A DNA stretch of 64,000 nt from Neocallimastix lanati (nom. inval.). Taxonomy: Eukaryota > Neocallimastigomycota > Neocallimastigomycetes > Neocallimastigales > Neocallimastigaceae. A model generated the notes under the pieces. The model saw nothing but the letters and a program-made list of their open reading frames with translations, searched no databases and was not told the DNA's origin. Positions 19,702 through 57,194 of the stretch are shown in pieces (positions within the stretch are counted from its first letter, which is position 1; each line of letters opens with the position of its first letter). The position numbers and the translations under genes are program-made. The stretch spans positions 222,501 to 286,500 of the forward strand of contig JACVTC010000063.1 of NCBI GenBank assembly GCA_016946835.1, written 5' to 3'.

Positions 19702-20609
19702 TTTTCTTATTTTTTAAAAAAAAAAAATAATTTTTAAAATTAAAATTTCTCTAGAAATGATTTAATGATTAGTAGTAGCTAATATATTCAAATATAAAAT
19801 TAAATAATAATCCACTTTTTATTATAAATATGGTGATATTCACATGATAACTTGATATATGATAAATATACATTTTATTATAATAATTTAACATAAAATT
19901 TATATAATATAAATAAACATTTTGATAAATTTTTCCAATTCTTAAATATAAAATAAAATATATTCTAATATATTATATAATTACTTTATAATTAATATAT
20001 TATCATATTACTATTTTTTTTTTTTTTTAATTATCAAATAAAAATTAATCAAAACTTTTCTTTTTTCTTAAAAAATTATAAAATAAAAAAAAAATTTTAT
20101 TGTTAAATATTCCCTTTACAAACAAAAAAATTTTTTTTTAAAAAAATAAAAAAAAGAAAAAAAAAAAAAAAAAAAAAAAAAAAGAAGGAAAAAAGTAATA
20201 ATGAATAATTTTTTATATATTATTTATTAATAAGATTTATTTAATTATTTAATTATTTTTAAAACTGTTAAAAATAAATAATTAAATAAATTTAAATAAA
20301 TAAAATAAATAAAATAGTAAAAAAAAATTATTTATAATTTATTTTAAAAGAAAGCAATAAAAATATTAATTAAGTAAATAAATTTACCTAATTAAAATTT
20401 TTAATTAATGACTTACTAAATTGTAATAGTTATATTAAACAACAAGTAACTATCATAACCGTTGAAGTAAATAATTTCATTGTGAATAAAATTATCTTTT
20501 ATCCAAAAAGAAACAACAAGTAATTATATTCTTCTTATATTATTTATCTATAATTTTTGAAATTATTTTCTTAAAAAAAAAAATACAATAAGGAATAATA
20601 TTAACAAAA
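19702..20609. promoter_or_regulatory. Divergent promoter region SYF2 / 5-phosphatase
   Basis: This 908-bp spacer separates two divergent start codons, so it must contain both promoters. It has poly-T and poly-A tracts (a ~25-bp A-run at about 20157-20185) typical of nucleosome-poor promoters in AT-rich genomes. I see no specific binding site that I can name. Confidence 0.5.
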
Positions 20610-24795: not shown

Positions 24796-24888
24796 TGCTC
24801 ATGGCGGAGGTCGAACCCGCGATCTTCGCGTTGCATAAGAGGATCACCCTTATAAGCACGACGCCTTAAACCTCTAGGCTACACGAGC
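24796..24888 (-). tRNA. tRNA-Ile(UAU) with 19-nt intron
   Basis: Read on the minus strand, the acceptor GCTCGTG pairs with CATGAGC and the discriminator is A. The D arm is GCCT..AGGC, the anticodon stem TCGTG pairs with CGCGA, and the T arm is GCGGG-TTCGACC-TCCGC. The anticodon TAT (24854-24852) reads AUA. A 19-nt intron (24850-24832) follows position 37, the canonical place, and part of it (CTTAT) can pair with the anticodon region. The mature length is 74 nt. An A box (TAGCCTAGAGG) and a B box (GGTTCGACC) are present, so the gene looks functional. Its sequence closely resembles, from memory, yeast tRNA-Ile(UAU), which also has an intron. Three LTR retrotransposons sit directly upstream. Confidence 0.96.
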
Positions 24889-24901
24889 TTCACGTTCATC
24901 G
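24889..24901 (-). other. tRNA 5' flank used as retrotransposon target
   Basis: These 13 bp are all that remains of the original tRNA 5' flank before element A. The pre-insertion site can be read by removing the three elements: ...CACGTTCATCGATGGTG. The last five bases here (CATCG, 24897-24901) are the left target duplication of element A. Targets of A, B and C all fall about 9-18 bp upstream of the mature tRNA 5' end. Confidence 0.85.
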
Positions 24902-25459
24902 TGTAAAAGGTAAGTTTATTATTAACTAGAATAACGAATAATAACTAAATTTAAAGGCTAAGATAACTTAACACCTCTCTATTCGAGTTGTTAATAATAA
25001 ACACTAAATTTAATTAACTCTATAATTATTATTTCTTATTACACGAGAATATAGCGCAGTACTTTATAACTCTTATTTGTTATCAGTTACTGGGCTTACA
25101 CTGAGTAATATTTTTGTTTAATAATTATAATTTTATTTATTAATATTAATATTTATAATAACAATTTACGTTAATAGTAACGCTAGTGCGTTACAGTTAC
25201 AAGTTCAATTATTATTTATACATGTCAATAATATTATGATTGGTAAATAATTTAATTTAACTTAGTTTACTAATCACTAAATAAAATATATTTAAATAAG
25301 TATTTAACTATATAATTATTTATAAGATAATAAAATTTAATGTACGAAAGTAATAAAAGATTTTATTTGATTAGCCGAAATTGCTAGCTGTTTAGAGATA
25401 CGTTACGTAACCAAAGAACTATCATTGGATAGGCTTGAAGTTACCATGTATCTGTTACA
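24902..25459 (-). repeat. Element A 3' LTR (558 bp)
   Basis: Matches 31903-32460 along its full length by eye, with TG..CA ends. Just inside it (25460-25475), the minus strand shows a purine-rich run (GGGAGAGG), the likely polypurine tract that primes plus-strand DNA. Confidence 0.95.
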
Positions 25460-25483
25460 AGGCCTCTCCCAAGGAGCAAGCTA

Positions 25484-28400
25484 CTAATGGTTGACGACGC
25501 TAGCAATGAACTGGCTATAGCTAAAATCTTGGTAATCCTCCAGCAATTCTGCGTAGTGAGGATTGTCGTCGATCACGTCGGCGTTGACCCACTCTTGTTT
25601 ATCATTCTGGTACGCAACCAGGTATTGATAAAGTCCTTGGTGTTTCCTTGATCCAAGGATATGAATTATCTTTTGGTTTCCTGCAGGAGCCGGCACTAAT
25701 GTTTTGGGTAATTTGTAGAATGGTTCCAATTCACTCACATGGAACACTGGGTACATATTTGGGAAAGGTGAACGACTTATATCTAATCTATAATTCTTCT
25801 TTTCTTCGTCGACACCAACTACCTTGAATGGTCCGAATTTCCTTGTTGCAAGTTTGTAAAATGGCAACGCGTCATAATTTTCAGGTTTCTTTAGCCATAC
25901 TTTATCTAACAATCTGTACCTGGGGTAATTATCTGTACGGGTCCTATCCATATTATCCAGGTATCTTGTTTGGGCAATTTCCAGGATGTGCTTTAGGTTT
26001 CCCAAGTTGTGAGCAAAGCTATCGATCATTTTAGCTTCACCTAACGAATGTACTAAATCGGCTGTCTTAGGGGAGTTATGTACCTGGTAGTTATATAAGG
26101 TGAGGAAAGGAGATTGTTGGGTAGAAGCGTGGATTGCGTTGTTATGACAGAACTCTGCCAAGAACAAGTAGTCCATCCAACTTTCATCATCGTAGGTTCC
26201 CACAAAGCACCGTAAATAAGTCTCTACGTAGGCATTATTCCTTTCTACTTGGCCTACTGTCTCGTGGTGACTAGTGGTAGCATGATTTACTTCAGTCCCG
26301 AAGAACTCTAGTAGCTCCTTCCATACCTGACTGGTGAACTGAACTCCTCTATCAGTCGTAACCACCTTAGGGAATCCATGCAACCTGTAAATCTCCTTTA
26401 GGAATGCGTCAGCTGTCTCGTTAGCGTTGGGCACATGTTTGAATCCTATTAGGTGTATCATCTTGGTTAATTTATCGCAGCATACTAAGATACAACCTGC
26501 TCTTTTCGTTTCCCAAACATATCCACTATTGGTCCTTACTCTACTCTTCACTGGCAGATCAGTTATAAAATCCAATTGTACCTCTTGCCAGGGTAATTCT
26601 GCAACCGGAACTCTTACCGCAGTACCATATTCTTTATGGCGATCATCCTTCTTAGTAGCGCAGGTTCTACAAGCTTTCACGTAGCCTGATATATCCTTCC
26701 TCATCTTCGGCCAGTAGAAATTCCTAGATACTAGGTCCGAAGTCTTATCAATTCCTAAGTGTCCTGCGTACTCCGAGTCATGGTTTAATTGAATAATTGT
26801 TTTCCTGAACGTTGTGGGCACGTAAATTTGTTCAGGGTTTTCCTTTCTAACCAGAAGACCATCTACTTCTAGCCAATGCTTCTTGTTGTAATTATTTCTG
26901 GCATCTTCTGCTAGATCTTTCATAATCTCTTGGGCCATTTTGTCCTGTCGGTAGGCCTGCTTGATATCATCCACGAAATTGATAGCTAAGGCTAGATAAC
27001 TGGCTTCTCCATCTACGTCATCAAATCCTACCAATTGATCGGGTTTTAATAGACTATCTTTATCAAATTCTTTACCCTCAGTTTTCTCTGTTTCAACTCT
27101 TGAGAGGGCGTCAGCTTTACCATTTTTCTTCCCAGGTCTGTAAACTATTTCAAACCAGTATGTGGCGAATAGTTCTTGCCATCTAATTTGCCTAGGAGTT
27201 AGTAATTGTGGTTTGGTAGCGAACAACAGATTTCTGTGGTCACTATAAACAATAATTTTATGCTTCGCACCTTGAAGCAAGTGTCGCCATTCTGTAAAAG
27301 CAGTCTTAATGGCTAATAGTTCTTTCTCTGTAATCGAATAATTTACTTCAGCCTTACTAAGTGTCTTCGAATAATAATATATGGGATGAAGGGTACCATC
27401 GTCTCCTTTCTGTGACAACACACCTCCTATCGCGTAATTACTAGCATCGCATTCAACGAAAAACTGTTTCTCGTGGTCAGGATAAGCTAGTACTGGCGGA
27501 GAGGTAAGCATTTCCTTTAATTTGTGAAACGCGGCCAGTCCTTCTTCGCTCCATTCAAATTTTTCTTTCTTTGAGGTCATCTTAAATAACGGTTTGGCTA
27601 TTTCAGAGAAATTCTTAATAAAATTCCTGTAATAATTGCAAAAGCCTAAGAAGCTTTGCATCTGCTTGATATTTTCTGGTTGTGGCCATTCTGCCACGGC
27701 CTTAATCTTTTCCGGGTCAGTCTCTACACCATCCTTGCTGACCACATGGCCTAAAAATGAGATCTTTAACTTATGTAGCTCACATTTGGACATCTTAGCT
27801 ACAAGTTTATGTTGTATCAGCTTCTTTAAAATTGTTCGAACATGCTCTACATGTTCCTCCAAGGTTTTGGAATATACTACGATGTCATCTAGGTAGACCT
27901 GACAGTACTTCCCGATATCCTCGCTGAAGACATCATTCACGAAGCTTTGGAACACCGCTGGTGCATTGGTTAGCCCAAAAGGCATTACCAAATGTTCAAA
28001 GTGTCCAAACTTGGTGTTGAAGGCTGTCTTGTACTCATCACCTTCTCGAATACGTACCAAGTTATAGGCAGATTTTAGGTCGAACTTGGAGAACACAACT
28101 GCTCCTTTCATAGCTTCGAACACTGCACTAATTCTTGGGATCGGATAGGCGTTGCGTTTAGTCCATTGGTTCAGTTTACGATAATCCATGCACAGTCGTA
28201 GCTCACCTGATTTCTTCGGCACGAACAATACAGGGTAACCCGCCGGAGATTCTGACCTTCTTATAAACCCCTTAGCCAAATTTTCATCAATATATTCTTT
28301 AAGTGCTTTCTCTTCTTTAGGACTCGTTGGGTAGATAGCTCCTTTATAAAGTGGTGCATCAGGCTCTAATTCTATTTTACAATCATACGGCCTGTGCTCT

Positions 28401-31162
28401 GGTAGTGTCTCAGCGATTTCTTCATTGAATGCTTCCGTTAAGTCACCATAATACTTATCTATAATTTCGCCTATTGACAATAGCTTCTCAAGTCCCACTT
28501 TTCTGATTGTTTCCGCTACCGAATCCTCTTGTGTGATCATGGCTAGATGATCTTTTGTCTGGCTATCTTTTTGTGCACTACTTTCCGTAGGGTTTTTATT
28601 GATTTCACTCTCCTTTAGGTTTTTAGTCTTCTGTACCTTGAACCAATCCGCCCATTTATCGTAATCCACTAAATAATCGTAGTAATCCATCGTATACTCA
28701 ATTCCTCTATCACGGTAATATTGCCTAGTTAATTCATACACCGTGTCCTTCAACTTCTGGTTATCAATAACCTGATTTATAATTTTGGTAATTCTCGCTG
28801 TAGGTTGAATCTCCTTTTGCACAGCTTCTTCTCTTTCTTCTGGGAGTTGCACCATGTAGATACTTTCACCTGCACACTCTTCTGGTGAGTCTACATCTGG
28901 TAGCCCTGGTCTTTCACCATCTATTTTATATACCTTAGGCTGTTGATCATGGACGTCAATCTTTCTATAGATTAAATGTCTATCCATGAATCTTGATCCC
29001 AGGATAATCGTTCTCGGCATAGCCTCGGCTAGCCTGCATCTTGTATTAAAGTCATACCATTTGACTTTACCAGTACGCTCTTCGACCAGCTTAATCTTAA
29101 TCTTGAACTCTTCCGTAACCTGTGGTATCAGCACTTTACCAGCGGCAGTAGTGAATGTTAAGGGACGGTCTTCTGTCTTGAGTCCCATCTCCTTGGCTAA
29201 CTGCGGATGGATCATGTTGATCTGTGATCCAGTATCGTACAGCACATTTAAATCTTGGAGCCCCTCTTTGGTACGAAGATTACTTATCTTGGCCTCAGGC
29301 ACAAATACTTCGTCCTCAGACCCAGCTTGCATTAGTAGTGCTGTCTTGGGGATTGGATTGTTACTGCTGGTACGTGAGTCTTTATAGTAATTTTGCTTTT
29401 CACTTGGTCTCGTACTAAAATCTTTACCACTATTGTGGTTATATCCATCTTTCTTGTTTCTATCGTAATTGTTTTGCTTAGTAGGCTCTTTCCTACTGAA
29501 ATCTCTTTTGTCGCCTCGGCGATTTTCGCTGTTCCTCCTTCTTTTGGCTTCAATATCCTTGGAGGGTCTTCGCGGGTCCATCATTCCAAGTAGGGCCATG
29601 ATGGCTATCTTCCTCTCGCGGTTGTATTCGTATCTTTCTAGGTAATCGTCTTTGTAATCCGCGGGGAATGTGTCGCATCTCCTTAGACAAGTCACGTAAT
29701 CTTCTAAGGTTTGCTTTTCTGCAGGTAGATCATAAAAGGCTTCACGAACCGAGGGTCTAACTTGTTGTACGAGTAGCAGTCTTTTGGTTTCATCCGTTAG
29801 CTGAAGTATTCTGCTTAACCTATTAAATTCTGATAGGTATTCATAGGCTTTACCCCAATCGTGCCTAAGTTTAAGCATTGCTGTTTTAACTTCTTCCAAC
29901 GTTCTTTCACTTTTAAATTCCTTCAGCAATCTATCCATCAACCTTTGAGGTTGTGGGTCATCTCGTTGTTTGAATACTTCGTCCATTTGGTACCACTTCT
30001 TAGCAGTTCCTTGTAAGTGGTCCTCAATAAAGTACAACATAGCCGTGGGCTCGCTTTGGTAATACTTCTGGTGTCTACCAAAGTACCTTTTTAACCTGTC
30101 AATAAATGATTCTACATCTCCATTTTCACCATTGAACATTGGGATGTCTCGTTCGTACTCCACAGGGTACGCGTCGGTCATGACCACATCTTCCATCGCA
30201 CTTTTGGTCATTATAGGCGGCGTGAAGTGGTGATAACTACCGTATCTTGCTTCTTTAGTATCTATATGTAGTGGGAAAGGTTTGCTTGCCGAAGCCTGCT
30301 CCTTATTCTGAGCATCCAGAGCCAGTTTACCCAGTCGCTCGATCTCCTGTTGCTGTACCTGGTTAATGGCCATTAGCTTCTCGACTTTTTCTTCAAGCTC
30401 ATTCAATTGTGCCTTATCCCTTTCTTGGTTCGCATCCAAGAATTCCTCAATCTTGAACAACTTCTGACCTTTATCCTCTAGGTCTTGTTGTATTTGTTTT
30501 CCTTTTATCTGGTCCGCATCCAGATAGGTTTCAATCTTCTTGATTTCAGCTTTAACAGCGGCCTCTTTATCTTTACTTTCAGCAAGTTGCTGACTTAGAT
30601 ACGCTTGTACCTTTTGAAGCTCTAGCACACTAGCTTGGCTACTAGACTCCTCGTCTTCCACACGCCTCTCAACCTCTCCAAATCGTTGGTCCACAGCGGG
30701 GATAAAGTTGCTTAGTTCGGCTTCAATTTTAGCGAATCTCATTTCACTTTGGTTCTGCATCTGTTCTATCATTGCAGCCGTCTGTTGCTGAGTGCTTATT
30801 ATCATGTTCTTAAAGTCCTCCATCTGCTTACTCAGCAAAGCAGCAAAGTCCATCGCTCCCGCATTAACATTTTTGCTTGAACTTTCCCCTTGGTTAGTTT
30901 CTGGCCTACTGGCTTCAGGTTTACTAGCCTCAGGTTGACTCTTCTCAGGCGCCACAGCTGGTTTAGGTTTAGAAACAGCTGATTTCTCAGGAGTGGTAGT
31001 CATTTTCTTGTCTCCTGTATTTCGGCGTCGAGATGGAGGTGCTTCTGCAGGCGTAGGGCTACTCTCTGCAGTCACGCTGCCCACCGAACTCTTCAAGGAA
31101 CCACTCCTTGTGGTTTTTCTTGTGTTTTCGGGCACTTTATTATTCTTATTCTTTTTATCCAT
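25484..31162 (-). CDS. Element A gag-pol polyprotein (1892 residues)
   Basis: Single open frame starting MDKKNKNNKVPENTRKTTRS. The N-terminal ~330 residues are charged and coiled-coil rich, followed by a capsid-like gag region (MFNGENGDVESFIDRLKRYF, about 345). A protease DTGS motif lies near 643. The reverse transcriptase has YLDD near 1091, and RNase H has DASNYAIG near 1240. The integrase has an HHCC zinc domain near 1465-1505 and D,D,E residues in QLDFITDLP (about 1530), TTDRGVQF (about 1602) and the following GQVERNN. The C-terminus (about 1830-1876, HILGSRKHQGLYQYLVAYQN then ELLEDY) resembles a divergent chromodomain. I see no CCHC knuckle in gag, as in Tf1-type elements. Gag and pol are fused in one frame. 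Confidence 0.93.
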   Translation of the reverse strand: MDKKNKNNKVPENTRKTTRSGSLKSSVGSVTAESSPTPAEAPPSRRRNTGDKKMTTTPEKSAVSKPKPAVAPEKSQPEASKPEASRPETNQGESSSKNVNAGAMDFAALLSKQMEDFKNMIISTQQQTAAMIEQMQNQSEMRFAKIEAELSNFIPAVDQRFGEVERRVEDEESSSQASVLELQKVQAYLSQQLAESKDKEAAVKAEIKKIETYLDADQIKGKQIQQDLEDKGQKLFKIEEFLDANQERDKAQLNELEEKVEKLMAINQVQQQEIERLGKLALDAQNKEQASASKPFPLHIDTKEARYGSYHHFTPPIMTKSAMEDVVMTDAYPVEYERDIPMFNGENGDVESFIDRLKRYFGRHQKYYQSEPTAMLYFIEDHLQGTAKKWYQMDEVFKQRDDPQPQRLMDRLLKEFKSERTLEEVKTAMLKLRHDWGKAYEYLSEFNRLSRILQLTDETKRLLLVQQVRPSVREAFYDLPAEKQTLEDYVTCLRRCDTFPADYKDDYLERYEYNRERKIAIMALLGMMDPRRPSKDIEAKRRRNSENRRGDKRDFSRKEPTKQNNYDRNKKDGYNHNSGKDFSTRPSEKQNYYKDSRTSSNNPIPKTALLMQAGSEDEVFVPEAKISNLRTKEGLQDLNVLYDTGSQINMIHPQLAKEMGLKTEDRPLTFTTAAGKVLIPQVTEEFKIKIKLVEERTGKVKWYDFNTRCRLAEAMPRTIILGSRFMDRHLIYRKIDVHDQQPKVYKIDGERPGLPDVDSPEECAGESIYMVQLPEEREEAVQKEIQPTARITKIINQVIDNQKLKDTVYELTRQYYRDRGIEYTMDYYDYLVDYDKWADWFKVQKTKNLKESEINKNPTESSAQKDSQTKDHLAMITQEDSVAETIRKVGLEKLLSIGEIIDKYYGDLTEAFNEEIAETLPEHRPYDCKIELEPDAPLYKGAIYPTSPKEEKALKEYIDENLAKGFIRRSESPAGYPVLFVPKKSGELRLCMDYRKLNQWTKRNAYPIPRISAVFEAMKGAVVFSKFDLKSAYNLVRIREGDEYKTAFNTKFGHFEHLVMPFGLTNAPAVFQSFVNDVFSEDIGKYCQVYLDDIVVYSKTLEEHVEHVRTILKKLIQHKLVAKMSKCELHKLKISFLGHVVSKDGVETDPEKIKAVAEWPQPENIKQMQSFLGFCNYYRNFIKNFSEIAKPLFKMTSKKEKFEWSEEGLAAFHKLKEMLTSPPVLAYPDHEKQFFVECDASNYAIGGVLSQKGDDGTLHPIYYYSKTLSKAEVNYSITEKELLAIKTAFTEWRHLLQGAKHKIIVYSDHRNLLFATKPQLLTPRQIRWQELFATYWFEIVYRPGKKNGKADALSRVETEKTEGKEFDKDSLLKPDQLVGFDDVDGEASYLALAINFVDDIKQAYRQDKMAQEIMKDLAEDARNNYNKKHWLEVDGLLVRKENPEQIYVPTTFRKTIIQLNHDSEYAGHLGIDKTSDLVSRNFYWPKMRKDISGYVKACRTCATKKDDRHKEYGTAVRVPVAELPWQEVQLDFITDLPVKSRVRTNSGYVWETKRAGCILVCCDKLTKMIHLIGFKHVPNANETADAFLKEIYRLHGFPKVVTTDRGVQFTSQVWKELLEFFGTEVNHATTSHHETVGQVERNNAYVETYLRCFVGTYDDESWMDYLFLAEFCHNNAIHASTQQSPFLTLYNYQVHNSPKTADLVHSLGEAKMIDSFAHNLGNLKHILEIAQTRYLDNMDRTRTDNYPRYRLLDKVWLKKPENYDALPFYKLATRKFGPFKVVGVDEEKKNYRLDISRSPFPNMYPVFHVSELEPFYKLPKTLVPAPAGNQKIIHILGSRKHQGLYQYLVAYQNDKQEWVNADVIDDNPHYAELLEDYQDFSYSQFIASVVNH

Positions 31163-31891
31163 TTACTTTTCTTAATAATTTATCTAGTATTAAGAAATGT
31201 ATTCACTCACTTTTAGTTTATTTAAAAGATTATAATTTGTTCACTTACTTAAATTTATTTAATTGATATGATCGTTCACTTAATTTTTTTTTTTTTTTAA
31301 AATAATAATATAAAATAAATAAAAATAAAAATAAAAAAAATAAATTTTTTTTTTTTTTAAAATTAAATGTATAGAAATTAATAATTTAAATAAATAATTA
31401 TTTTAAAAATTTTTTTTTTTTTTTTTCGCTTCCCGAGTCACTACAAATATAAATTTGTACGAAAAATGACTACCTATCAAGCAAAAGCGAATTTTATTTG
31501 GTAAAGTACGAAATTTTTATTAATTAAAAATCGGTACTACCAAAAATTTAAAATTTTTAATTAAATAACGATTTATAATTAAATTATTAATAAATTAAAT
31601 TTCGGATATGCGAAATTTTTAAAAATTTAAATTTTTAAATTTTTGATCAAAATTTTATTTTGAAGCCGAAAAAAATTTTTTTTTGTGGCTTCCTCCGCTA
31701 CGTATTGTGGCGTAAAATTTTGTGTCAAAAATTTTCTAAGTTATACAAATAAAAGTAAACAAAGAAAATAAATAAACTATGATTTATTTTTTAAATATTA
31801 ATTTTATTTTATAAAACTAACTATTCTATCTATTAAATTATTACTTAGCGTTTAAATTTTTATTTAATTATTATCGGCTATTTAGTTATAA
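31163..31891 (-). other. Element A 5' leader
   Basis: AT-rich untranslated leader between the primer-binding site and the gag start, with several homopolymer runs and two GC-richer patches (about 31430-31480 and 31680-31720). Confidence 0.6.
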
Positions 31892-31902
31892 AGCGTTACT
31901 AT
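31892..31902 (-). promoter_or_regulatory. Element A primer-binding site, self-primer type
   Basis: On the minus strand ATAGTAACGCT directly abuts the 5' LTR with no gap. It is the exact reverse complement of AGCGTTACTAT inside the LTR (32175-32185). It does not look like the complement of a tRNA 3' end, which would begin TGG. The pattern matches Tf1/sushi-type self-priming, where the 5' end of the element RNA primes minus-strand synthesis. Confidence 0.75.
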
Positions 31903-32460
31903 TGTAAAAGGTAAGTTTATTATTAACTAGAATAACGAATAATAACTAAATTTAAAGGCTAAGATAACTTAACACCTCTCTATTCGAGTTGTTAATAATA
32001 AACACTAAATTTAATTAACTCTATAATTATTATTTCTTATTACACGAGAATATAGCGCAGTACTTTATAACTCTTATTTGTTATCAGTTACTGGGCTTAC
32101 ACTGAGTAATATTTTTGTTTAATAATTATAATTTTATTTATTAATATTAATATTTATAATAACAATTTACGTTAATAGTAACGCTAGTGCGTTACAGTTA
32201 CAAGTTCAATTATTATTTATACATGTCAATAATATTATGATTGGTAAATAATTTAATTTAACTTAGTTTACTAATCACTAAATAAAATATATTTAAATAA
32301 GTATTTAACTATATAATTATTTATAAGATAATAAAATTTAATGTACGAAAGTAATAAAAGATTTTATTTGATTAGCCGAAATTGCTAGCTGTTTAGAGAT
32401 ACGTTACGTAACCAAAGAACTATCATTGGATAGGCTTGAAGTTACCATGTATCTGTTACA
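31903..32460 (-). repeat. Element A 5' LTR (558 bp)
   Basis: Identical by eye to 24902-25459. It carries the promoter and self-primer sequence described separately. Confidence 0.95.
32175..32221 (-). promoter_or_regulatory. Element A core promoter and self-primer
   Basis: The minus-strand TATAAATA (32221-32214) is followed 36 nt later by AGCGTTACTAT (32185-32175), which is complementary to the primer-binding site. If transcription starts there, the RNA 5' end is the primer. A 7-bp hairpin (GTAACGC-ACTA-GCGTTAC, 32195-32178) overlaps the predicted start. Confidence 0.65.
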
Positions 32461-32470
32461 CATCGATTGT
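32461..32470. repeat. Overlapping target-site duplications of elements A, C and B
   Basis: Ten bases, CATCGATTGT, hold three interlocking 5-bp duplications: CATCG (32461-32465, element A, partner 24897-24901), TCGAT (32463-32467, element C, partner 45963-45967) and ATTGT (32466-32470, element B, partner 39565-39569). The last includes the first three bases of element C's LTR. Confidence 0.9.
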
Positions 32471-33449
32471 TGTAATAATCATACTAAGTTCTATCACTAA
32501 ATATGATTATTAACTTCAACTTAATGACTAATTCATTAAGTTGAGAAATAAAATAAAAATAAAAACTTTACCTAAAAAGAGAGTTTATTATAAAATTAAT
32601 TATAATAACAACACAAAAAGTAAAAGAAGGAATATTTAGATAAATTTAGTTTTAAGAAATATGTTTTTTGAATAAAATGTTTTATTAATTTATTAAAATT
32701 TAAAATATAAAATTGCTATTATTATAACTATATTTTTATAATAATAACTCTTGATTTCTTAAAGGGAAATCAAGAGCCTTATTTATATTTTTTTATGGAA
32801 ATAAGGTTAAATAAAAAGGTTTTCTAATCTTAAAAAATATCTTATCTAGAAAAAGATTAGAAGAAAAAACTAGATAAGTTTTTTGATCGATATTCTATTC
32901 ATATCGATCATCGTATATATTAAGTAAAACCAAATATATTATTTTATATTTGGATAAAACCTTAATATATCGATTTCCTAAATTTTAATTTAGATCATCT
33001 AATAAAAGGAAAAATCAATAATAACCGGAATGATCTAAATTATTCTATTCTATCTTTCTAAATATTATTTTTAAAATCTAATCTAAACTTATTAACATAA
33101 AACTATCTTTAAACTAGAATACAGAATTATAAAAAATACAGAAACTTATTAATTGTTCTTTTAAATGTACAATGTAAAAAATAAATAAAACTAATGTTTA
33201 CATTAACTTGATAATTAAATGAATAACTAAATAAAATTAATAATATTAATAAGTGTACATATAATAATTATTTAAATAAATTTTCTAATATTATTTAAGT
33301 GTATGAATAATTACAATTATAATAAATTTGATAATAATATCTCAATGTATGAATTAATTATAATTTAAATAAATTTATAATTATTATCAATAATTATAAA
33401 GACTAAGAAATAATAATTATTTATTAGTAAATAATTATTATTTCTTACA
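32471..33449 (-). repeat. Element B 3' LTR (979 bp)
   Basis: Matches 38586-39564 by eye, from TGTAATAATC to CTTACA. Next to it, the minus strand AAATGGAGCAA is the likely polypurine tract; element C has the similar AAGGAGGTGCAA. Confidence 0.95.
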
Positions 33450-33458
33450 TTGCTCCAT

Positions 33459-37646: not shown

Positions 37647-37742
37647 GTAAATATAAATAATTATAACAGCAAAATTATTATGATTTTATAATTAAGCTTC
37701 TGAATTGATTATTAATATTTTAAGTTTTATTAAAAAAAATTA

Positions 37743-37827
37743 TTTTGCATGCTGCTGTTCACCAACCGGCTTGGTCGATGAGCTGAATGTAGATTTCAGT
37801 TCTACCAGCGAGGGCCAGGATGCAAAA
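37743..37827 (-). other. Possible structured leader RNA in element B
   Basis: An 85-nt GC-richer block in the AT-rich leader is closed by an inverted repeat, TTTTGCAT (37743-37750) with ATGCAAAA (37820-37827). It could be a packaging or translation signal. The fold is inferred by eye. Confidence 0.4.
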
Positions 37828-38046
37828 AATTTTATTAATAAGAGGCTCAAAACAAAATAAACAAGACTTTCCTTAATTATTCAATTATAAAATTTTCTCT
37901 CTGAAATAATTATTAAATAACTTATTATTTTTAAAAATTATAATTTTCTATCATTAACTATATTTATCTAATAATTTATTTAATTTACTAACTATTTTAT
38001 TTTATATTTTGTTTATTTATTTTTTATATCAATTCGTTGATACTCA

Positions 38047-38088
<42 letters not shown>

Positions 38089-38311
38089 TTAATTTATTCA
38101 ATTTATCTATTTACTAATTATTTCATTCATTTATTACTCTATAATTGATTTATCTATTTAATAATTATTTAATTTATTTATTTTTCTATAATTGACTTAT
38201 CCATTTATTAAATCATTAATTTATTTAATTTATTTATTTACTAATTTTATTTACTAATTTTATTTACTAATTTTATTTACTAATTTTATTTATTTATTTA
38301 ATTATTTACTT

Positions 38312-38358
<47 letters not shown>

Positions 38359-38573
38359 AAAATTATTAATTAAAACTAATTTTTTTTTTTTTTTTTTCCA
38401 ATCAAAATTGCCAAAAAAAAATTTTTTTTTTTTTTTTTTTTTACGCCACTCTAGCTATATATTATTATTTTATTCTAATATATATATTTTTAATATACTA
38501 ATTCACTATTCCAATGTTACACTATTCTAAAAATTTTCCACATTTTATCTAACCCTAAACTAATCTAATCTAG

Positions 38574-38585
38574 AAGAGTTATTAT
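38574..38585 (-). promoter_or_regulatory. Element B primer-binding site, self-primer type
   Basis: The minus-strand ATAATAACTCTT abuts the 5' LTR. It is the perfect reverse complement of AAGAGTTATTAT within the LTR (38867-38856). It is not of tRNA-3'-end type. Confidence 0.75.
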
Positions 38586-39564
38586 TGTAATAATCATACT
38601 AAGTTCTATCACTAAATATGATTATTAACTTCAACTTAATGACTAATTCATTAAGTTGAGAAATAAAATAAAAATAAAAACTTTACCTAAAAAGAGAGTT
38701 TATTATAAAATTAATTATAATAACAACACAAAAAGTAAAAGAAGGAATATTTAGATAAATTTAGTTTTAAGAAATATGTTTTTTGAATAAAATGTTTTAT
38801 TAATTTATTAAAATTTAAAATATAAAATTGCTATTATTATAACTATATTTTTATAATAATAACTCTTGATTTCTTAAAGGGAAATCAAGAGCCTTATTTA
38901 TATTTTTTTATGGAAATAAGGTTAAATAAAAAGGTTTTCTAATCTTAAAAAATATCTTATCTAGAAAAAGATTAGAAGAAAAAACTAGATAAGTTTTTTG
39001 ATCGATATTCTATTCATATCGATCATCGTATATATTAAGTAAAACCAAATATATTATTTTATATTTGGATAAAACCTTAATATATCGATTTCCTAAATTT
39101 TAATTTAGATCATCTAATAAAAGGAAAAATCAATAATAACCGGAATGATCTAAATTATTCTATTCTATCTTTCTAAATATTATTTTTAAAATCTAATCTA
39201 AACTTATTAACATAAAACTATCTTTAAACTAGAATACAGAATTATAAAAAATACAGAAACTTATTAATTGTTCTTTTAAATGTACAATGTAAAAAATAAA
39301 TAAAACTAATGTTTACATTAACTTGATAATTAAATGAATAACTAAATAAAATTAATAATATTAATAAGTGTACATATAATAATTATTTAAATAAATTTTC
39401 TAATATTATTTAAGTGTATGAATAATTACAATTATAATAAATTTGATAATAATATCTCAATGTATGAATTAATTATAATTTAAATAAATTTATAATTATT
39501 ATCAATAATTATAAAGACTAAGAAATAATAATTATTTATTAGTAAATAATTATTATTTCTTACA
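38586..39564 (-). repeat. Element B 5' LTR (979 bp)
   Basis: Identical by eye to 32471-33449. It contains the TATA box, hairpin and self-primer. Confidence 0.95.
38856..38902 (-). promoter_or_regulatory. Element B core promoter and self-primer
   Basis: The minus-strand TATAAATA (38902-38895) lies 35 nt before AAGAGTTATTAT (38867-38856). An 11-bp perfect hairpin (CTCTTGATTTC with GAAATCAAGAG, 38863-38891) spans the space and overlaps the first five bases of the primer. Confidence 0.65.
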
Positions 39565-39566
39565 AT

Positions 39567-40354
39567 TGTAATAATTTCTATAAATTATAGAGATTATTAT
39601 TTATAATTAATATTAACTAAACTATTAAGATTAAATAAAAATTAAAATAAAAATTAAAATAAAAATAAGAATTTAATACTTATCTTTAAAATTAGAGCTT
39701 ATTATAAGAAAATATAATAGACCTTAAATGAAAGAGAAATAAAATATGTTTTTATCAAAAGAACTTTATTAATCTATTTTATTATTAAATATTTTATTAT
39801 TTTTTTTTGACAAATTTTAAAATAACTATTTTATATTAATTGAAATATTAATGTCTTTTATTGTTATTATATTTTTCTTAAAATAATAACTCTTGATTTT
39901 CTAAAGACGAAAATCAACAGCTATTTATATTTTTACAAAAATAAATGTATTTTTCTAATCTTAACAATGATTCTTTCCAGAAAAAGATTAGAAGAAAAAA
40001 CTGGAAAGATTTTTGATCAATAATCTATACTTATTGATCATCGTGTTATTAAATAAAACCAATTATAATTAATCGGAAAAACTTTAATAACCGATTTTAA
40101 TAACTAAAAGAATTAAAAAGAAAAAGGATAAAAAAGAGAAGGATAAAATAATGCAGAAATTTTATTAAATACATTTTTTCTATGAAATAATACAGAAGTT
40201 ATATTAAATACATTTTTTCATATAACAATTAATACATTAATTGGTATAATTGTTTTTAAATGAAATAAATTTTTTAAAGAATAATAATTATGAAATAATT
40301 ATTAATTAATAAGAAATAGAAATAAATTATAAAAATTTATATCAATTTCTTACA
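39567..40354 (-). repeat. Element C 3' LTR (788 bp)
   Basis: Matches 45175-45962 by eye. Its first three bases are also the end of element B's target duplication. Confidence 0.95.
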
Positions 40355-40364
40355 TTGCACCTCC

Positions 40365-43300
40365 TTATGATGCATCCACTAGTTCCGGATTTCTTTTTGT
40401 ATAAGGCTCCAACTGGGAAACATGAAATACCGGATGTAAATGTAGATTTTCTGGCAAATCTAAACGGTAATTCATTCTCTCCCTCACTTCCAAAACTCTA
40501 AACGGCCCAAGATATTGTGAAGAAAGTTTTTTGGATGGCTCATTTGTAAAATAATATCTTTTTAACCATACAAAATCATTTACTTTGAATGAAGGTCCTG
40601 TAGCTTTCTTCGAATCTCCAAACTTCTTAAAATTTTCTTTAGCTTTTTGTAAGTGTCTCTTCAATGCTTCGAAATGTGAGGACCAATCCCTGGTTAAAGC
40701 GGAAGCATTATCCTTTAGAAGAACAGGAGGCGACTCTATAGTACAGGAAGGATTAAAGCCATAATTAGCAAAGAATGGTGATTTACCTATGGACTTATGC
40801 AGGGAGTTGTTATAGGCCATTTCACATAAAGGAACATAATAACACCATTCATTTTGGGACGTTGAACAATAACATCGGAGATACTGCTCAATTACTGAAT
40901 TTGCACGCTCAATTTGTCCATTGGATTGTTGATGGTGAGCTGTGGCAAGTCTTGGATTAGCGTTAATAGCAGAGCACAACGAAGTCCAAAATTCTGATGA
41001 AAATTGAGAACCATGGTCCGAAACAATTATTTTAGGGAATCCATGGTAGCGAAAAACATTGAATAGAAGCATTTTGGCCGTCAGATCAGCGGAGGGAACA
41101 TCAGAACAAGGGACAAGGTGAATCATTTTGGTCAGATGGTCAGCTACAACCATTAAACATGTACAATCTTGCGAACTGGGAAGTGAAGTGATAAAGTCAA
41201 CGCCAATTATTTCCCAAGGTCTACTGGGAACCGGTAAAGGTTGTATTTTACCATATGGCTTGTGTCTTCGGAGCTTATTTCTTCCACAAACATCGCATGA
41301 GGATATGTAATTCTTGATGTCTTTTTTCATATTTGGCCACCAATAATTTCTTCTTAATTTTTCAAAAGTTTTATCTACTCCTTGGTGACCATTAGTTGGA
41401 CCATCATGATACATATTCAATACCTTGGCCTTGAGTGAAGAAGGGACAATTATTCGGTTCTGAAAATGCAGAACCCCTTCGACGATGGTAAAAAGCGAAC
41501 TTTTTACTTCATTTGACCTTGTTTTAATTTTATTGAGTGTATCCTTACAGTATGTGTCAGACTTCTGAGCTTCAATTAAGGCTTTTAAGTTGTCAGAAGG
41601 TGCACAACAAAATATCTCTTCATCTAACAGAGGATAACCTTCATTGGTCGAATCCTTGTTGACGTAATCAGGGCGTCTTGATAAAGAGTCAGGTTTACCA
41701 CTCTTAATACCGGAGCGAAATGAAATCCTATAAGTGAACTTTGAGAGAAAGAGACTCCATCTAATTTGTCTTTGGTTTAATTTTTGAGGTTGCTTAAAAT
41801 ATAACAGATTTCTGTGATCTGTGACTACTTGTACTGGGAATTTAGCACCTTCTAGGTGATGGCGCCAGGTTTCAAAAGCTACGATTATTGCAAGTAATTC
41901 CTTGTCGTAAATAGTATAATTGATTTCAGCAGAAGACAAGGACCTAGAGTAGAAAGCAACCGGATGGAGTTTATTGTCTTTGTTACTAATTTGAGATAAA
42001 ACACAACCAACAGCGAAATTGCTAGCGTCCGTTTCTACAAAGAATTCTTTCTCTGGATCTGGATAAACTAGGATTTCTTCCGTCGTAAAAGCTTCTTTGA
42101 GTTTGTTGAAAGCATTGTCTGCCCTAACATCCCAAATGAAGGAAGAGTTCTTCTTCAAAAGCCGACGGAGAGGTTCAATGATCTCGGCAAAATTATTTAT
42201 AAACTTCCTATAGAAGTTACAAAGTCCTAGAAACCCTTGGAGTTCTTTAATATTTTTTGGGATAGGCCAGTCGATAACAGCTTTAACCTTATTCTTGTCC
42301 ATTGAAAGACCATTTACAGACACCACAAACCCTAAAAAAATAGTTTCTTTAACATGAAAATCACATTTTTCCAATTTCACGTAAAGACCGTTTTTAATTA
42401 GAAGCGACAATATTTTACGAACATGTTGAATATGTTCGTCCAAACTTTTTGAATAAATTATTATATCATCCAAGTATACTTGAACAAATATGCCAATTGC
42501 ATCAGATAAAACATCCTGGATGAATCTTTGAAACACCGAGGGGGCATTTCTTAAGCCAAAGGGCATTACTAGATATTCAAATTGGCCTAAAGGTGTTCTA
42601 AAAGCAGTTAAATATTCATGACCTTCTTTAACGCGGACAAGGTTATACGCAGATCGAAGGTCCAAACGAGTGAATATTACTGCCCCCTTAAACGATTCAA
42701 TCAAGTCAACCAATCTTGGGATAGGGTAGCTATTCCTAATTGTAATAGAATTTAATTTCCTATAATCAACGCAGAGTCGTAAGCTTCCATCTTGTTTTTT
42801 TACAAACAGGACAGGGGCACCAGCAGGTGATTTTGACTTCCTTATAAACCCCTTATCTAAATTTTCTTTTAAATAGTTTTTAAGAGCTTCCATTTCGACA
42901 ATCGTAAGAGAGTACACAGGTCCATAATATAATTGACCACCAGGGACTAGGTCAATTGATATATCATATTCACGATGTGGAGGCAATTTGTCTGCCTCTT
43001 TCTTTTCAAATACAATTTTCAAATCTTGATAGTATATGTTGATAATTTCATCTTTATCAGTTTCATTTACTACAGCGGCGCAAATATCTATATCAAAAAG
43101 TTCGTCACCAGATATTGAGTATGTTTCTGTTTTATCTTTTGATACATTGTTGTTTTCGTTGTTTGGCAAAATTGCAGCAGTAACATCTTTAGAGTGAAAA
43201 ATGAATTTATTCCCTTTTGCTGAAGGGCAGTGATTTCCGCAGTGGTTCTCTAAAAAGTAAATCTTATTATTTTTGAAATCTACGTATGGCATATGAATAC

Positions 43301-43598
43301 TCAACCAATCTCTTCCAAGGATGGCTGATATTCCCTGAAGTTGTAAGGTAGCTACGTAGAATTCATAGCTTTCCTTGTGGTCCATGAAGGCAAGGCCTAA
43401 TTTCTTCGTTACTTGTCTTATATTCATACTTTTGTTGTTCGGTAACTGAATGTTCAATGGTGAAGACAAGGTAGATAATTGAATTCTGTTGGCGTTTACA
43501 AAGTCTCTACAGATGTAACTTCTTGCAGAACCAGAATCAATAAGGACGTTTATTTTCATTTTCTTTCCATTATTATTTAATATAAATGTAGTGGTCAT
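40365..43598 (-). CDS. Element C pol polyprotein
   Basis: Open frame of 1077 residues. It begins within protease (LIDSGSARSYI, about 43540), then RT (YLDDIIIYS, about 42465), RNase H (ETDASNFAVG, about 42020), the integrase zinc domain (HQGVDKTFEKL, CDVC, about 41390-41280) and the catalytic core (GVDFITSLP, SDHGSQF, NGQIERAN). It ends after HPVFHVSQLEPYTKRN, as in element B, with no chromodomain seen. The protein is clearly a cousin of element B's pol. Confidence 0.92.
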   Translation of the reverse strand: MTTTFILNNNGKKMKINVLIDSGSARSYICRDFVNANRIQLSTLSSPLNIQLPNNKSMNIRQVTKKLGLAFMDHKESYEFYVATLQLQGISAILGRDWLSIHMPYVDFKNNKIYFLENHCGNHCPSAKGNKFIFHSKDVTAAILPNNENNNVSKDKTETYSISGDELFDIDICAAVVNETDKDEIINIYYQDLKIVFEKKEADKLPPHREYDISIDLVPGGQLYYGPVYSLTIVEMEALKNYLKENLDKGFIRKSKSPAGAPVLFVKKQDGSLRLCVDYRKLNSITIRNSYPIPRLVDLIESFKGAVIFTRLDLRSAYNLVRVKEGHEYLTAFRTPLGQFEYLVMPFGLRNAPSVFQRFIQDVLSDAIGIFVQVYLDDIIIYSKSLDEHIQHVRKILSLLIKNGLYVKLEKCDFHVKETIFLGFVVSVNGLSMDKNKVKAVIDWPIPKNIKELQGFLGLCNFYRKFINNFAEIIEPLRRLLKKNSSFIWDVRADNAFNKLKEAFTTEEILVYPDPEKEFFVETDASNFAVGCVLSQISNKDNKLHPVAFYSRSLSSAEINYTIYDKELLAIIVAFETWRHHLEGAKFPVQVVTDHRNLLYFKQPQKLNQRQIRWSLFLSKFTYRISFRSGIKSGKPDSLSRRPDYVNKDSTNEGYPLLDEEIFCCAPSDNLKALIEAQKSDTYCKDTLNKIKTRSNEVKSSLFTIVEGVLHFQNRIIVPSSLKAKVLNMYHDGPTNGHQGVDKTFEKLRRNYWWPNMKKDIKNYISSCDVCGRNKLRRHKPYGKIQPLPVPSRPWEIIGVDFITSLPSSQDCTCLMVVADHLTKMIHLVPCSDVPSADLTAKMLLFNVFRYHGFPKIIVSDHGSQFSSEFWTSLCSAINANPRLATAHHQQSNGQIERANSVIEQYLRCYCSTSQNEWCYYVPLCEMAYNNSLHKSIGKSPFFANYGFNPSCTIESPPVLLKDNASALTRDWSSHFEALKRHLQKAKENFKKFGDSKKATGPSFKVNDFVWLKRYYFTNEPSKKLSSQYLGPFRVLEVRERMNYRLDLPENLHLHPVFHVSQLEPYTKRNPELVDAS

Positions 43599-43707
43599 TG
43601 AATTTGAGGTGTTTGGTGTATAGTTAGCCGAAAGGATGCTTTCTTTGTTTTGATTTTTTCTGAATTTCTTGTGTACTTTGTTGTTCTTGAATTCCTGTTT
43701 TGGATGC

Positions 43708-44361
43708 TCATCTCTTTTTCTTTTTTTGCGACTTGTTGGTTGACTTATTTGTTTTGGCTATGTTGTTAATGAAACATTTTTTATCGATGCTGATGATTGA
43801 ATTTGTTGCTTCAAAAAGGGTCTTTGGTCTTTCGATTTTATCGAACTCCAGACGAACCTCCTCAAGAAGGCCTCTCCGGATAAGGTCAATAAAAACATCG
43901 TCGTTCCAACCAATTCTTGACGCTAATCTTCTGAATTCAATAGTAAAGAAAGCTGCCTTTCCGAGGTGAAGCTGTTTAAGGTTCAAAAGTTCTTCAATTA
44001 AAACAAACCTTTGTTCCTTTGTATCTCCAAAATTTTCTAACAATAACCTCTTAAATTCCTCATAGGTGAGAGAATTAAGTGTTCCATCAGCCTTGAGAGA
44101 TAATCCCCATTTTTTAGCTGGTCCATAAAGTTTGCTGATAACGAAAGCGTTTCTAAAGTTGTCATTTGGGAACGAATTGGCATGTTCATCAAAGAACAAT
44201 TCACACTGTTCCGTTAGTTCGTTTAGATTAAGCTTTGTGTTGTCTTCATTGCGGGCCAACACACCGTTAGGTGAAAAAAATGTGGGAATAAATTCGGTAA
44301 TTGCAGAAATTAATTTTGACGCTTCAGCTTCCTTAGTAGCTTCCATACTGATTGAATTCAT
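43708..44361 (-). CDS. Element C gag
   Basis: Open frame of 217 residues starting MNSISMEATKEAEASKLISA. It contains the retrotransposon gag core (FISKLYGPAKKWGLSL-like block, then YEEFKRLLLENFGD, AAFFTIEFRRLASRIGW) and a Lys-rich C-terminus without a zinc knuckle. It is homologous to the N-terminal part of element B's polyprotein. Confidence 0.88.
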   Translation of the reverse strand: MNSISMEATKEAEASKLISAITEFIPTFFSPNGVLARNEDNTKLNLNELTEQCELFFDEHANSFPNDNFRNAFVISKLYGPAKKWGLSLKADGTLNSLTYEEFKRLLLENFGDTKEQRFVLIEELLNLKQLHLGKAAFFTIEFRRLASRIGWNDDVFIDLIRRGLLEEVRLEFDKIERPKTLFEATNSIISIDKKCFINNIAKTNKSTNKSQKKKKR

Positions 44362-44475
44362 TAAAATACTAAATAGACTTTTTTAATATAGATCTTTAAA
44401 ATATCTTTAAAATATCTTTAATATATGTATATAATTGTAAAATATAAATTATTTATATTAATAATAGAAATTTAT

Positions 44476-44747
44476 AACTTCGGAGTCTAGAAGAACACTT
44501 CCAATATTTTAACAAAAATGAGCATTTCCAACCAATTTTCCAGAAGCCCCTGAGTTTGAGTGATAGTATGCGCTATACGACCAGCTTACCTATTAATGGT
44601 GTCTTGTTGCCGCGCGCACCACGATTGCAATCTGTTTACCATTAAAACAGACCAGTTCAGAGCCTCCCGCACAGCTTGTCGTGAAGGGTAAACTTAATCC
44701 GGAAATCACTCAGTTACAAGACTCAGGCTACTCCTGCTTCTAAAGTT
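44476..44747 (-). other. GC-rich structured leader in element C
   Basis: A ~270-nt block far richer in GC than its surroundings lies between the primer-binding site and gag. Its ends can pair in two steps: AACTT with AAGTT (44476-44480, 44743-44747) and AGAAG with CTTCT (44489-44493, 44737-44741). The position suits a packaging, dimerisation or translation signal. The function is inferred. Confidence 0.45.
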
Positions 44748-45026
44748 CGTACTAATTCTCATTATATTGTTTATTTTTGGAAATAACTTCTAGAATCCTT
44801 TATTATAAATTAATATTATTAAATATAAAAAATTTAATTGTTAGTATAATTTATAGTATATAATTTACGTATTTATTATTATTGTTATTGTTATAATTAT
44901 TTTATTTAATAATATAATTTTACTATCTATTAATATATACAATTTAATTTATATAATTATAATTTACTATTAAAATTTTTTTTTTTTTTTTTTATTATAT
45001 TATTTATTTATCTGATTGGAAAAAAT

Positions 45027-45061
<35 letters not shown>

Positions 45062-45162
45062 CTCTAATATTATCTATTTATTTATTTGATCGGATAAAAT
45101 AAATTTTTTTTTTTTTTTACTTTTGTACTACAATATCATAATACAATTAACTAATTATCTAG

Positions 45163-45174
45163 AAGAGTTATTAT
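45163..45174 (-). promoter_or_regulatory. Element C primer-binding site, self-primer type
   Basis: The minus-strand ATAATAACTCTT abuts the 5' LTR and is perfectly complementary to AAGAGTTATTAT in the LTR (45502-45491). It is the same 12-mer as in element B although the LTRs otherwise differ. Confidence 0.75.
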
Positions 45175-45962
45175 TGTAATAATTTCTATAAATTATAGAG
45201 ATTATTATTTATAATTAATATTAACTAAACTATTAAGATTAAATAAAAATTAAAATAAAAATTAAAATAAAAATAAGAATTTAATACTTATCTTTAAAAT
45301 TAGAGCTTATTATAAGAAAATATAATAGACCTTAAATGAAAGAGAAATAAAATATGTTTTTATCAAAAGAACTTTATTAATCTATTTTATTATTAAATAT
45401 TTTATTATTTTTTTTTGACAAATTTTAAAATAACTATTTTATATTAATTGAAATATTAATGTCTTTTATTGTTATTATATTTTTCTTAAAATAATAACTC
45501 TTGATTTTCTAAAGACGAAAATCAACAGCTATTTATATTTTTACAAAAATAAATGTATTTTTCTAATCTTAACAATGATTCTTTCCAGAAAAAGATTAGA
45601 AGAAAAAACTGGAAAGATTTTTGATCAATAATCTATACTTATTGATCATCGTGTTATTAAATAAAACCAATTATAATTAATCGGAAAAACTTTAATAACC
45701 GATTTTAATAACTAAAAGAATTAAAAAGAAAAAGGATAAAAAAGAGAAGGATAAAATAATGCAGAAATTTTATTAAATACATTTTTTCTATGAAATAATA
45801 CAGAAGTTATATTAAATACATTTTTTCATATAACAATTAATACATTAATTGGTATAATTGTTTTTAAATGAAATAAATTTTTTAAAGAATAATAATTATG
45901 AAATAATTATTAATTAATAAGAAATAGAAATAAATTATAAAAATTTATATCAATTTCTTACA
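45175..45962 (-). repeat. Element C 5' LTR (788 bp)
   Basis: Identical by eye to 39567-40354. It is followed directly by the target duplication TCGAT. Confidence 0.95.
45491..45537 (-). promoter_or_regulatory. Element C core promoter and self-primer
   Basis: The minus-strand TATAAATA (45537-45530) lies 35 nt before AAGAGTTATTAT (45502-45491). A 9-bp hairpin (TTGATTTTC with GAAAATCAA, 45501-45525) lies between them, as in element B. Confidence 0.65.
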
Positions 45963-45967
45963 TCGAT

Positions 45968-56468: not shown

Positions 56469-57194
56469 AATAAAATAAAAAACTTATCTATATTAATAAA
56501 AAGTAAATGTAATATAAAAATAAAAAATAAAATTAGTAAAAAATTAAAAAATTAAAAAAAATAAAAATTTATTGCTGTTGTCTTCTCTTTCGTGTATATT
56601 GTTTGCTAAAACTTGTTTGTTTTTCTTTCTTTTTGTGTTGACTAGTTTTTAATTAATGATTTTCAATTATAAATTCCTGTTTTATGTAAAAATTTCTGTA
56701 AAATAATCATATATAATATAAAATTTAAATGTTAATGAAATAATAGTTGTGAAAAACTATAAAAAGATTCCCATCCGTTAAATAATGTCTTAAACACAAG
56801 CTTTGGAGTGAATCAATCTCCTACATTTCCATTTTACAATGGCTACATGAAAGTATAAAAAATACTATAGAAAAATACATATACAAAATTATGCTAAAGT
56901 AAAAAATACAATAGATTCATTACAATGATAATATGTAGAAACTACATGATATTATTAATTATACAACTCCAATGTTACTACATATCCAGTTTAAAACAAT
57001 ATAAAACATCAGGTTCACTTTCTACAGTCTTCCAGTATTCCAGTTTTCACTCTTCGTACTAGAAGCCACTTTAGAAAGGATAACCATATATTATCATCAG
57101 AATCACAGAAAGCTGTAATTAGTACACCTGATATAGGTTATTCCTTTTCCATCAACCCTCCATGGACCTGGAAAAACAGTCCACTTCATTGGGG
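56469..57194 (-). promoter_or_regulatory. LINE 5' UTR with presumed internal promoter
   Basis: About 726 bp between the 5' edge of the LINE (set by the start of the right direct repeat) and its ORF. Autonomous LINEs need an internal promoter here. I see no specific box, and no ORF1. Confidence 0.5.

Follow-up and report, generated by a model that had tools for sequence, protein, structure and literature searches.

The tRNA locus and its three elements

We analysed a window of 64,000 nucleotides on contig C588 (1,021,624 bases) of the genome assembly of Neocallimastix lanati (Neocallimastigomycota), in which positions 24796-45967 are occupied by one tRNA gene and three Ty3/gypsy retrotransposons, here called A, B and C. 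A gene of the window (20592-21863) is 100% identical over 98% to a Neocallimastix lanati protein. The assembly comprised 199,045,447 bases in 762 contigs; the published genome, obtained with PacBio reads of 7,821 bp on average, is given as 200.97 Mb in 970 contigs (PMC8561657), so that the assembly analysed differs from the published set. A first-pass annotation had proposed that the three elements are stacked at a single site just upstream of the tRNA gene, and the stack was confirmed. We describe its layout and the position of further copies of the three families relative to promoters of RNA polymerase III (Pol III).

The insertion target is an intron-bearing tRNA gene at 24796-24888 on the minus strand, found by ARAGORN and by the Rfam tRNA model (RF00005, 49.2 bits), with an intron-like insert of 20 nt at the anticodon loop. 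It had been annotated as tRNA-Ile. Its nature as a tRNA gene stands; ARAGORN named its isotype inconsistently, and we take it to be probably tRNA-Ile(UAU) from its resemblance to the yeast tRNA-Ile(UAU).

Element A, the newest of the three, lies closest to the gene (24902-32460, minus strand). Its long terminal repeats (LTRs) of 558 bp (24902-25459 and 31903-32460) are identical (558/558), and its target duplication, CATCG, is found on the tRNA side (24897-24901) and on the distal side (32461-32465). It is followed by element B (32471-39564, minus strand), with identical LTRs of 979 bp (32471-33449 and 38586-39564; 979/979) and the duplication ATTGT at 32466-32470 and 39565-39569, and then by the oldest element, C (39567-45962, minus strand), with identical LTRs of 788 bp (39567-40354 and 45175-45962; 788/788) and the duplication TCGAT at 32463-32467 and 45963-45967. 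All three have the TG..CA LTR pairs and duplications of about 5 bp that characterize Ty3/gypsy elements. The intact LTR pairs and the three duplications were thus recovered as annotated, including the interlocking of the latter within 32461-32470. The tRNA-side duplication of B ends in a copy of the first 3 nt of C, while its distal counterpart covers the final 2 nt of the duplication of C plus the 3 nt with which C begins. Because of this overlap, B must have inserted at the junction of C, and since the duplications nest, the order of insertion was C, then B, then A. Counted by eye, A lies 13 bp from the tRNA 5' end, B lay at 18 bp before A arrived, and C at 15 bp before B, in agreement with the range of about 9-18 bp first given. 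As had also been noted, the long open reading frames of all three elements are on the minus strand, the same as the tRNA gene.

An assembly artefact or recombination between LTRs could be held responsible for such an arrangement. The mean PacBio read is about as long as one element (PMC8561657), so that the full 21-kb stack may lack a single read that spans it. The individual junctions, however, are short enough for single reads, each element carries its own intact duplications, and junctions of the same type recur at dozens of places, which leaves this explanation with a vanishingly small probability.

Copies of the three families in the genome

Genome-wide searches with 3'-end patterns returned 346 matches for A (reversed control, 34), 155 for B (control, 0) and 110 for C (control, 0). 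Flanks were read for 114 of these 611 matches, namely the first loci of each search and further places in list order; in visible pairs, the outer LTR was used. Twenty-two ran into the element itself, leaving 92 outer 3' flanks (A 36, B 28, C 28). A second set of A copies skipped places already read, among them the tRNA-facing loci L053 and L054, and the tRNA count is therefore lowered. Note also that the flanks are not all independent, because some duplicate one another (e.g., L080/L083 and L165/L167). Control positions were drawn from loci L009-L016 and from the window outside the stack.

By pattern, a pair of A and B boxes lay within 40 nt (<=40) of 12 of the 92 outer flanks, compared with 5 of 4000 random positions. 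Together with a tRNA-Met gene facing A at L041, which the pattern missed, 13 of the 92 flanks have a Pol III-type neighbour. Four of these neighbours are true tRNAs by Rfam (L027, L041, L074 and L152). The remaining nine (L020, L025, L030, L031, L062, L072, L078, L156 and L183) are tRNA-like and have no Rfam tRNA match at E<=0.1; many targets of the Pol III type are not tRNA genes but A/B-box sequences that lie within other LTRs. A joint pattern, in which the end of A is followed by 52-82 nt and a B box, occurs at 9 places genome-wide and nowhere in the reversed control, and these places include both true tRNAs (L053, 61.5 bits; L057, 69.9 bits) and the tRNA-like heads of LTRs discussed below. 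Where such a sequence is in view, the copies agree with the insertion range that defines Pol III-targeting Ty3-like elements (Ty3, Tj1 and DGLT-A), namely about 5-20 bp upstream of a tRNA gene or another gene transcribed by Pol III.

The common orientation seen in the window became a bias in the sample and was not fixed. By pattern, A is in sense at 9 places and in antisense at 2 (control for the antisense joint pattern, 0), and in the common flank of L079 and L081 an antisense C begins 16 bp away from a tRNA 5' end (Rfam, 55.0 bits). The flank of L082 opens with TCTTG like that of L081, which would resemble a target duplication if these were the two ends of one element, yet they are 12 kb apart. 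The tRNA in L079/L081 (632-740) closely resembles that of the window. At L150 and L153, an antisense A is found directly behind B, with a gap of 3.

The check first proposed was to plot the distance of LTR copies to the nearest tRNA gene, together with their orientation. Run on the genome sample, it gave the 13 flanks with Pol III-type neighbours; most sampled copies abut other LTRs and not tRNA genes. Because of these abutting copies a plain distance plot would mislead, and that measure was dropped, given that stacks hide the target behind other LTRs.

Flanks of tRNA genes

The association was also examined from the side of the tRNA genes. An Rfam search scored 63 of 9278 candidates, from which 20 copies of one tRNA were chosen by score outside a cluster on contig C555, and 200 bp upstream and 150 bp downstream of each were read. 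The cluster itself (C555:170732-399007, 228 kb) is a large tRNA array that holds 34 of the 63 scored matches on one strand, of which 31 tie for the top score. In 12 of the 20 sampled copies (L105-L124), a second tRNA, which we read as tRNA-Asn (Rfam, 63.8 bits in L112), is located 90-92 bp ahead and forms a repeated tRNA pair; in these cases the distance to the LTR was measured from that second gene.

With a set of LTR-end motifs compiled after the flanks were read, an LTR-like terminal motif was found 10-18 bp upstream in 19 of the 20 copies and downstream in none, compared with 217 of 5000 random positions. BLAST comparison of the flanks with other loci gave matches upstream in 12/20 and downstream in 1/20 under a strict filter, and in 15/20 and 7/20, respectively, under a loose one, most of the seven downstream matches being, by our reading, short and AT-rich. 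Furthermore, tRNA copies with a common downstream flank bear different upstream LTR ends, at distances that differ by 0-4 bp. Clustering beyond chance, which had been claimed from the window, is borne out by the A/B-box counts, the joint pattern and the tRNA flanks, and position-specific integration of the sampled copies at Pol III start sites is supported by the upstream/downstream asymmetry, the target duplications and a distance specific to each family.

Random insertion followed by selection, with only the copies in harmless sites upstream of tRNA genes surviving, should also be considered, since DNA upstream of tRNA genes has been called a safe site (PMC5911963). A position held to within a few base pairs for each family would hardly result from selection, nor would the arrival of different elements at near-identical bases. 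Moreover, all three LTR pairs of the window are 100% identical, which leaves little time for sorting by selection. We accord this explanation a very low probability.

Spacing from the promoter

Each family has a characteristic distance between its LTR end and the point at which the A-box pattern begins: in 5 unselected copies of A it is 18-19, in 4 copies of B 23-25 and in 3 copies of C 23-24. A second count, based on fixed motifs and including copies selected by the joint pattern, gave 18-22 for A (12 copies), 22-23 for B (2 copies) and 22 for C (1 copy); one false match was dropped from it, and one A row is a tRNA-Asn that had been mislabelled 'i'. LTR ends of the ..TATCA, ..ACCA and ..AACA types lie at about 22 from the A box when counted by eye.

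If all families measure from the promoter, the gap between two stacked elements is predicted to equal the length of the target duplication of the newer element plus the promoter distance of the older one minus that of the newer. For ends of the ..TATCA, ..ACCA and ..AACA types before A, the observed gap is 7-8 at 13 places (predicted 8); for ..TTACA-type ends before A, it is 9-10 at 8 places (predicted 9-11); and for A before A, it is 5 at one place (predicted 5). The gap is 0-2 behind an older A in 25 of 28 assigned flanks, 3-7 behind an older B in 19 of 21, and 3-7 behind an older C in 22 of 23. Some flanks show no clear LTR end in the comparison before A, and in the assignment by older element 8 of 80 were left unassigned. 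The shift of about 4 between an older A and an older B or C equals the difference in their promoter distances. Junction gaps therefore largely follow a spacing rule measured from the Pol III gene.

Junctions and stacks

Among the other outer flanks of the three families, most meet another LTR within some 10 bp. For the 80 flanks that gave no A/B-box hit, the initial sequence recurs at another junction in 46 (random positions, 1/300), and in 74 an LTR-like start is found within 16 nt (<=16; random positions, 558/5000). Junction motif sets and gap classes were compiled after the flanks had been read; the junction-start recurrence, the A/B-box test and the upstream/downstream BLAST comparison are independent of those motif sets.

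Where A touches a promoter, both 5-bp duplications are intact in 8 of 9 copies and in the window copy, and in the ninth (L008) 4 of 5 letters match; at L054 and L056 the duplications are runs of A and hence weak. In five stacks, an A/B-box sequence follows beyond a single further LTR or element, within 1.5 kb in four of them (L023, L029, L039 and L040) and within 3.3 kb in one (L049). Of five walks of 8 kb downstream of A, two reached an A/B-box sequence, in L049 and in L050, the latter being identical in place with L029. The duplications give the order of insertion both for the window and for several stacks, and where a promoter is in view the copies take up a precise position before either class of target, tRNA genes or tRNA-like sequences.

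It is in the context of these junctions that we weigh the possibility that the elements recognise the ends of other LTRs, tRNA genes being incidental. The abundance of LTR-to-LTR junctions would agree with it, as would the walks that end without a promoter (see below). Several features are difficult to accommodate, however. The distance to the A box is the same whether the target is a true tRNA gene or an LTR head; the gap shift of about 4 bp between an older A and an older B or C matches their tRNA distances; and LTR ends occur only upstream of the tRNA copies. In L007, A appears to lie about 18 nt inside an LTR head, the start of that LTR being deduced, at a place set by the A box and not by the LTR end. 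Junction targeting is consequently very improbable.

We consider it highly probable that A, B and C are position-specific families, whose sampled copies lie at near-fixed, family-specific distances before tRNA genes or A/B-box sequences, or stacked behind LTRs, likely by way of a TFIIIB tether, with newer copies inserting on the promoter side. Each integrase would be tethered to Pol III initiation factors (TFIIIB) assembled at the promoter; newer copies would insert between the older ones and the promoter, so that the newest lies nearest; and stacks would generally end at a tRNA or A/B-box promoter.

A number of observations weigh against position-specific insertion as we propose it. At L041, A lies 32 bp from the tRNA instead of 11-13, and one of the 20 sampled tRNAs (L124) has no LTR end nearby. 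The gap at L028, 12 or, on another reading of its neighbour, 4, does not fit the ruler, and in the window the gap from C to B is 2 instead of the predicted 5 or so (off by about 3). The A copy of L042/43 sits about 13 bp into another LTR; its duplication is intact, and the adjacent 40 nt (<=40) contain no A/B box. This locus is also the exception to a pattern in which, beside another LTR, only the first 1-3 letters of the duplication of A are common to both sides, as seen in 11 of 12 readable rows; L028 shares none. In favour of the proposal, the remainder of the duplication was found beyond the newer LTR, exactly in L023 and L029/L050 and with one letter changed in L028/L049; in L049 the duplication made by the newer element consists of the final 5 bases of A. 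Since one or two common letters often arise by chance, the reappearance of the duplications in these three stacks is the stronger evidence for it. In three of the five 8-kb walks (L047, L048 and L051), no A/B box was found beside a recognised LTR end, L048 having a single pattern hit away from any such end. These walks may represent longer stacks; that of L047 is treated as unfinished because a further LTR-like end follows, by BLAST, after the LTRs of A and of a TGGTACG family. Finally, the TFIIIB tether is proposed from the positions of the copies.

Two other LTR or LTR-like families were noted. L047:112-6015 contains three LTR copies of the TGGTACG family, with 4-bp duplications and a protease frame on the strand opposite to A. 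An LTR-like family present in L155, L160, L173, L179, L182 and L047 starts with TAATACAG and seems to end in CTGTATTA, not in the TG..CA form.

tRNA-like LTR heads as apparent landing sites

The tRNA-like targets fall into five groups (i-v), each with an A box and a B box in what we read as the head of an LTR (examples are L049, L062, L030, L025 and L020). Repeated units within the groups run to about 270-650 bp, those of group v at only 77% identity. In groups i-iv the copies end in ..GTTACA before differing sequence, and TATA-like motifs are present in groups i, ii, iv and v. The LTR nature is best shown for group ii, with 470 candidates at first look; among the 40 that were scored, 7 same-strand pairs lie 5.2-5.3 kb apart, and because of this pairing we regard the units as the LTRs of a larger element. 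Short interspersed nuclear elements and tRNA pseudogenes were considered for the nine neighbours and rejected, given the lack of an Rfam match at the threshold used, the long units and the pairs of group ii.

Elements A, B and C lie before the tRNA-like heads at the same spacing as before tRNA genes. These heads may work as Pol III promoters and assemble Pol III factors in the cell. Some retroelements thus seem to carry landing pads for others, an idea that follows from the fact that 9 of the 13 Pol III-type neighbours are A/B-box heads of other LTRs. A broader proposal, which we judge evenly balanced, is that landing sites are self-made: LTRs with Pol III promoters multiply, and targeting families, some of them free of chromodomains, use both these LTRs and tRNA genes. 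Each arrival would insert on the promoter side, so that stacks would record the order of insertion and would not be limited by the number of tRNA genes.

Proteins and integrases

The proteins of the three elements place them in Ty3/gypsy (Metaviridae). In each of them Pfam identified an SH3 domain together with reverse transcriptase, RNase H and integrase, the domain order being protease, reverse transcriptase, RNase H and integrase. Element A has a pol-containing frame of 1892 aa (25484-31162, minus strand), in which these domains are followed by a C-terminal tail of about 77 aa; no gag match was found in A by Pfam, though the pol order is present. Element B has a gag-pol frame of 1408 aa (33459-37685, minus strand), and C has a pol frame of 1130 aa (40365-43757, minus strand) overlapped by a gag frame (43708-44382, minus strand). 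Ty3_capsid, the Ty3-type gag, was matched in B and C. The gag-pol frame of B and the pol frame of C both end 11 aa past the SH3 domain, and a Pfam search for a chromodomain in A, B and C returned none.

A tree was built from 72 proteins, consisting of A, B and C and 69 relatives chosen by chromodomain label from 156 listed pol proteins; for the relatives, the lack of a chromodomain was read from precomputed Pfam lists, and for the three elements it was tested directly. Elements B and C, which are related (71-74% DNA identity over aligned pieces), belong to a clade of 16 (support 100) whose members end 0-12 aa past the aligned integrase. Element A represents a different lineage. Its clade (support 99) comprises 17 proteins, of which 15 have tails of 70-81 aa and none a Pfam chromodomain. 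Both clades are nested among chromodomain-bearing relatives, with 8 label changes on the tree compared with 23.9 in shuffles.

For the tail of A (model residues 403-452), a strand-strand-strand-helix arrangement was predicted (mean predicted local distance difference test score 69.9; predicted TM-score 0.42; tail blocks 67-80). The model is compatible with a diverged chromodomain as in Ty3, which is not thereby proven. In the listed alignment with Ty3 VIA, the tail lies outside the matched part, which excludes nothing about its identity. In Ty3 of Saccharomyces cerevisiae, a vestigial chromodomain contacts Brf1 and serves as a ruler (PMC8632968). To judge from their frames, B and C, with no such domain by Pfam, must position themselves without it.

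Relation to known systems

Ty3-like targeting of Pol III genes is known for Ty3, Tj1 and DGLT-A. The elements Ty3, DGLT-A and Skipper-2 had been named at the outset as comparisons; the first two hold, and Skipper-2 does not. Because it inserts downstream of tRNA genes (PMC5006619), DGLT-A, Ty3 and Tj1 are the right comparisons. Tj1 (Schizosaccharomyces japonicus) has been found in a single orientation only, whereas A and C occur here in both, and compared with the hosts of Ty3 and Tj1 the genome is large, at about 199 Mb. DGLT-A of dictyostelids resembles the present elements in having no chromodomain, in its place upstream of tRNA genes, at 13-16 bp in D. purpureum, and in the occurrence of several elements at one tRNA gene (PMC5006619). 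It differs in that it occupies compact amoeba genomes in few copies, and the accessible part of that study describes no A/B-box LTR heads as targets.

The LTR heads of groups i-v, with their A and B boxes and no Rfam tRNA match, recall Helenus (TRIMp3), which carries tRNA-like sequence in its LTRs in fungi, animals and plants. Helenus, however, is a short, non-autonomous terminal-repeat retrotransposon in miniature (TRIM; PMC10886601), and the pairs of group ii, at 5.2-5.3 kb, are too far apart for a TRIM; moreover, the LTR heads here are landing sites for other elements. Cassandra and Ajax also have a Pol III promoter inside the LTR, but it is derived from 5S and not from tRNA (PMC10886601). 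Chromoviruses are the chromodomain-bearing relatives among which A, B and C are nested, and they differ in that the three elements lack a Pfam chromodomain, the frames of B and C leaving only the 11 aa past SH3.

In a review, the table of tRNA-associated elements covers Ascomycota and dictyostelids only (PMC5911963, section 11). The first-pass annotation knew of no earlier description, and likewise, among the matches listed from the open-access literature, subscription papers not being covered, we found none that describes retrotransposons targeted to Pol III genes in anaerobic gut fungi or in any other early-diverging fungi. Its finding is right and is larger than first stated.

The usual explanation for the targeting of tRNA genes is adaptation to a compact genome. 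In N. lanati such targeting takes place in a genome of about 199 Mb, both at real tRNA genes and at A/B-box sequences carried by other retroelements. The stacks constitute a record of insertion order resolved to the base pair, with a built-in ruler, from which the targeting rules of many families could be read in one assembly. That nearly the same position is reached without a chromodomain (B and C) and with only a diverged tail (A) separates two ideas of how Ty3 measures its site.

Two further features were observed in the window on the minus strand. A frame of 961 aa at 58955-61840 has no Pfam match and is overlapped by a frame of 655 aa on the other strand, and a frame of 1366 aa at 52383-56483 encodes a non-LTR retrotransposon with endonuclease and reverse transcriptase.

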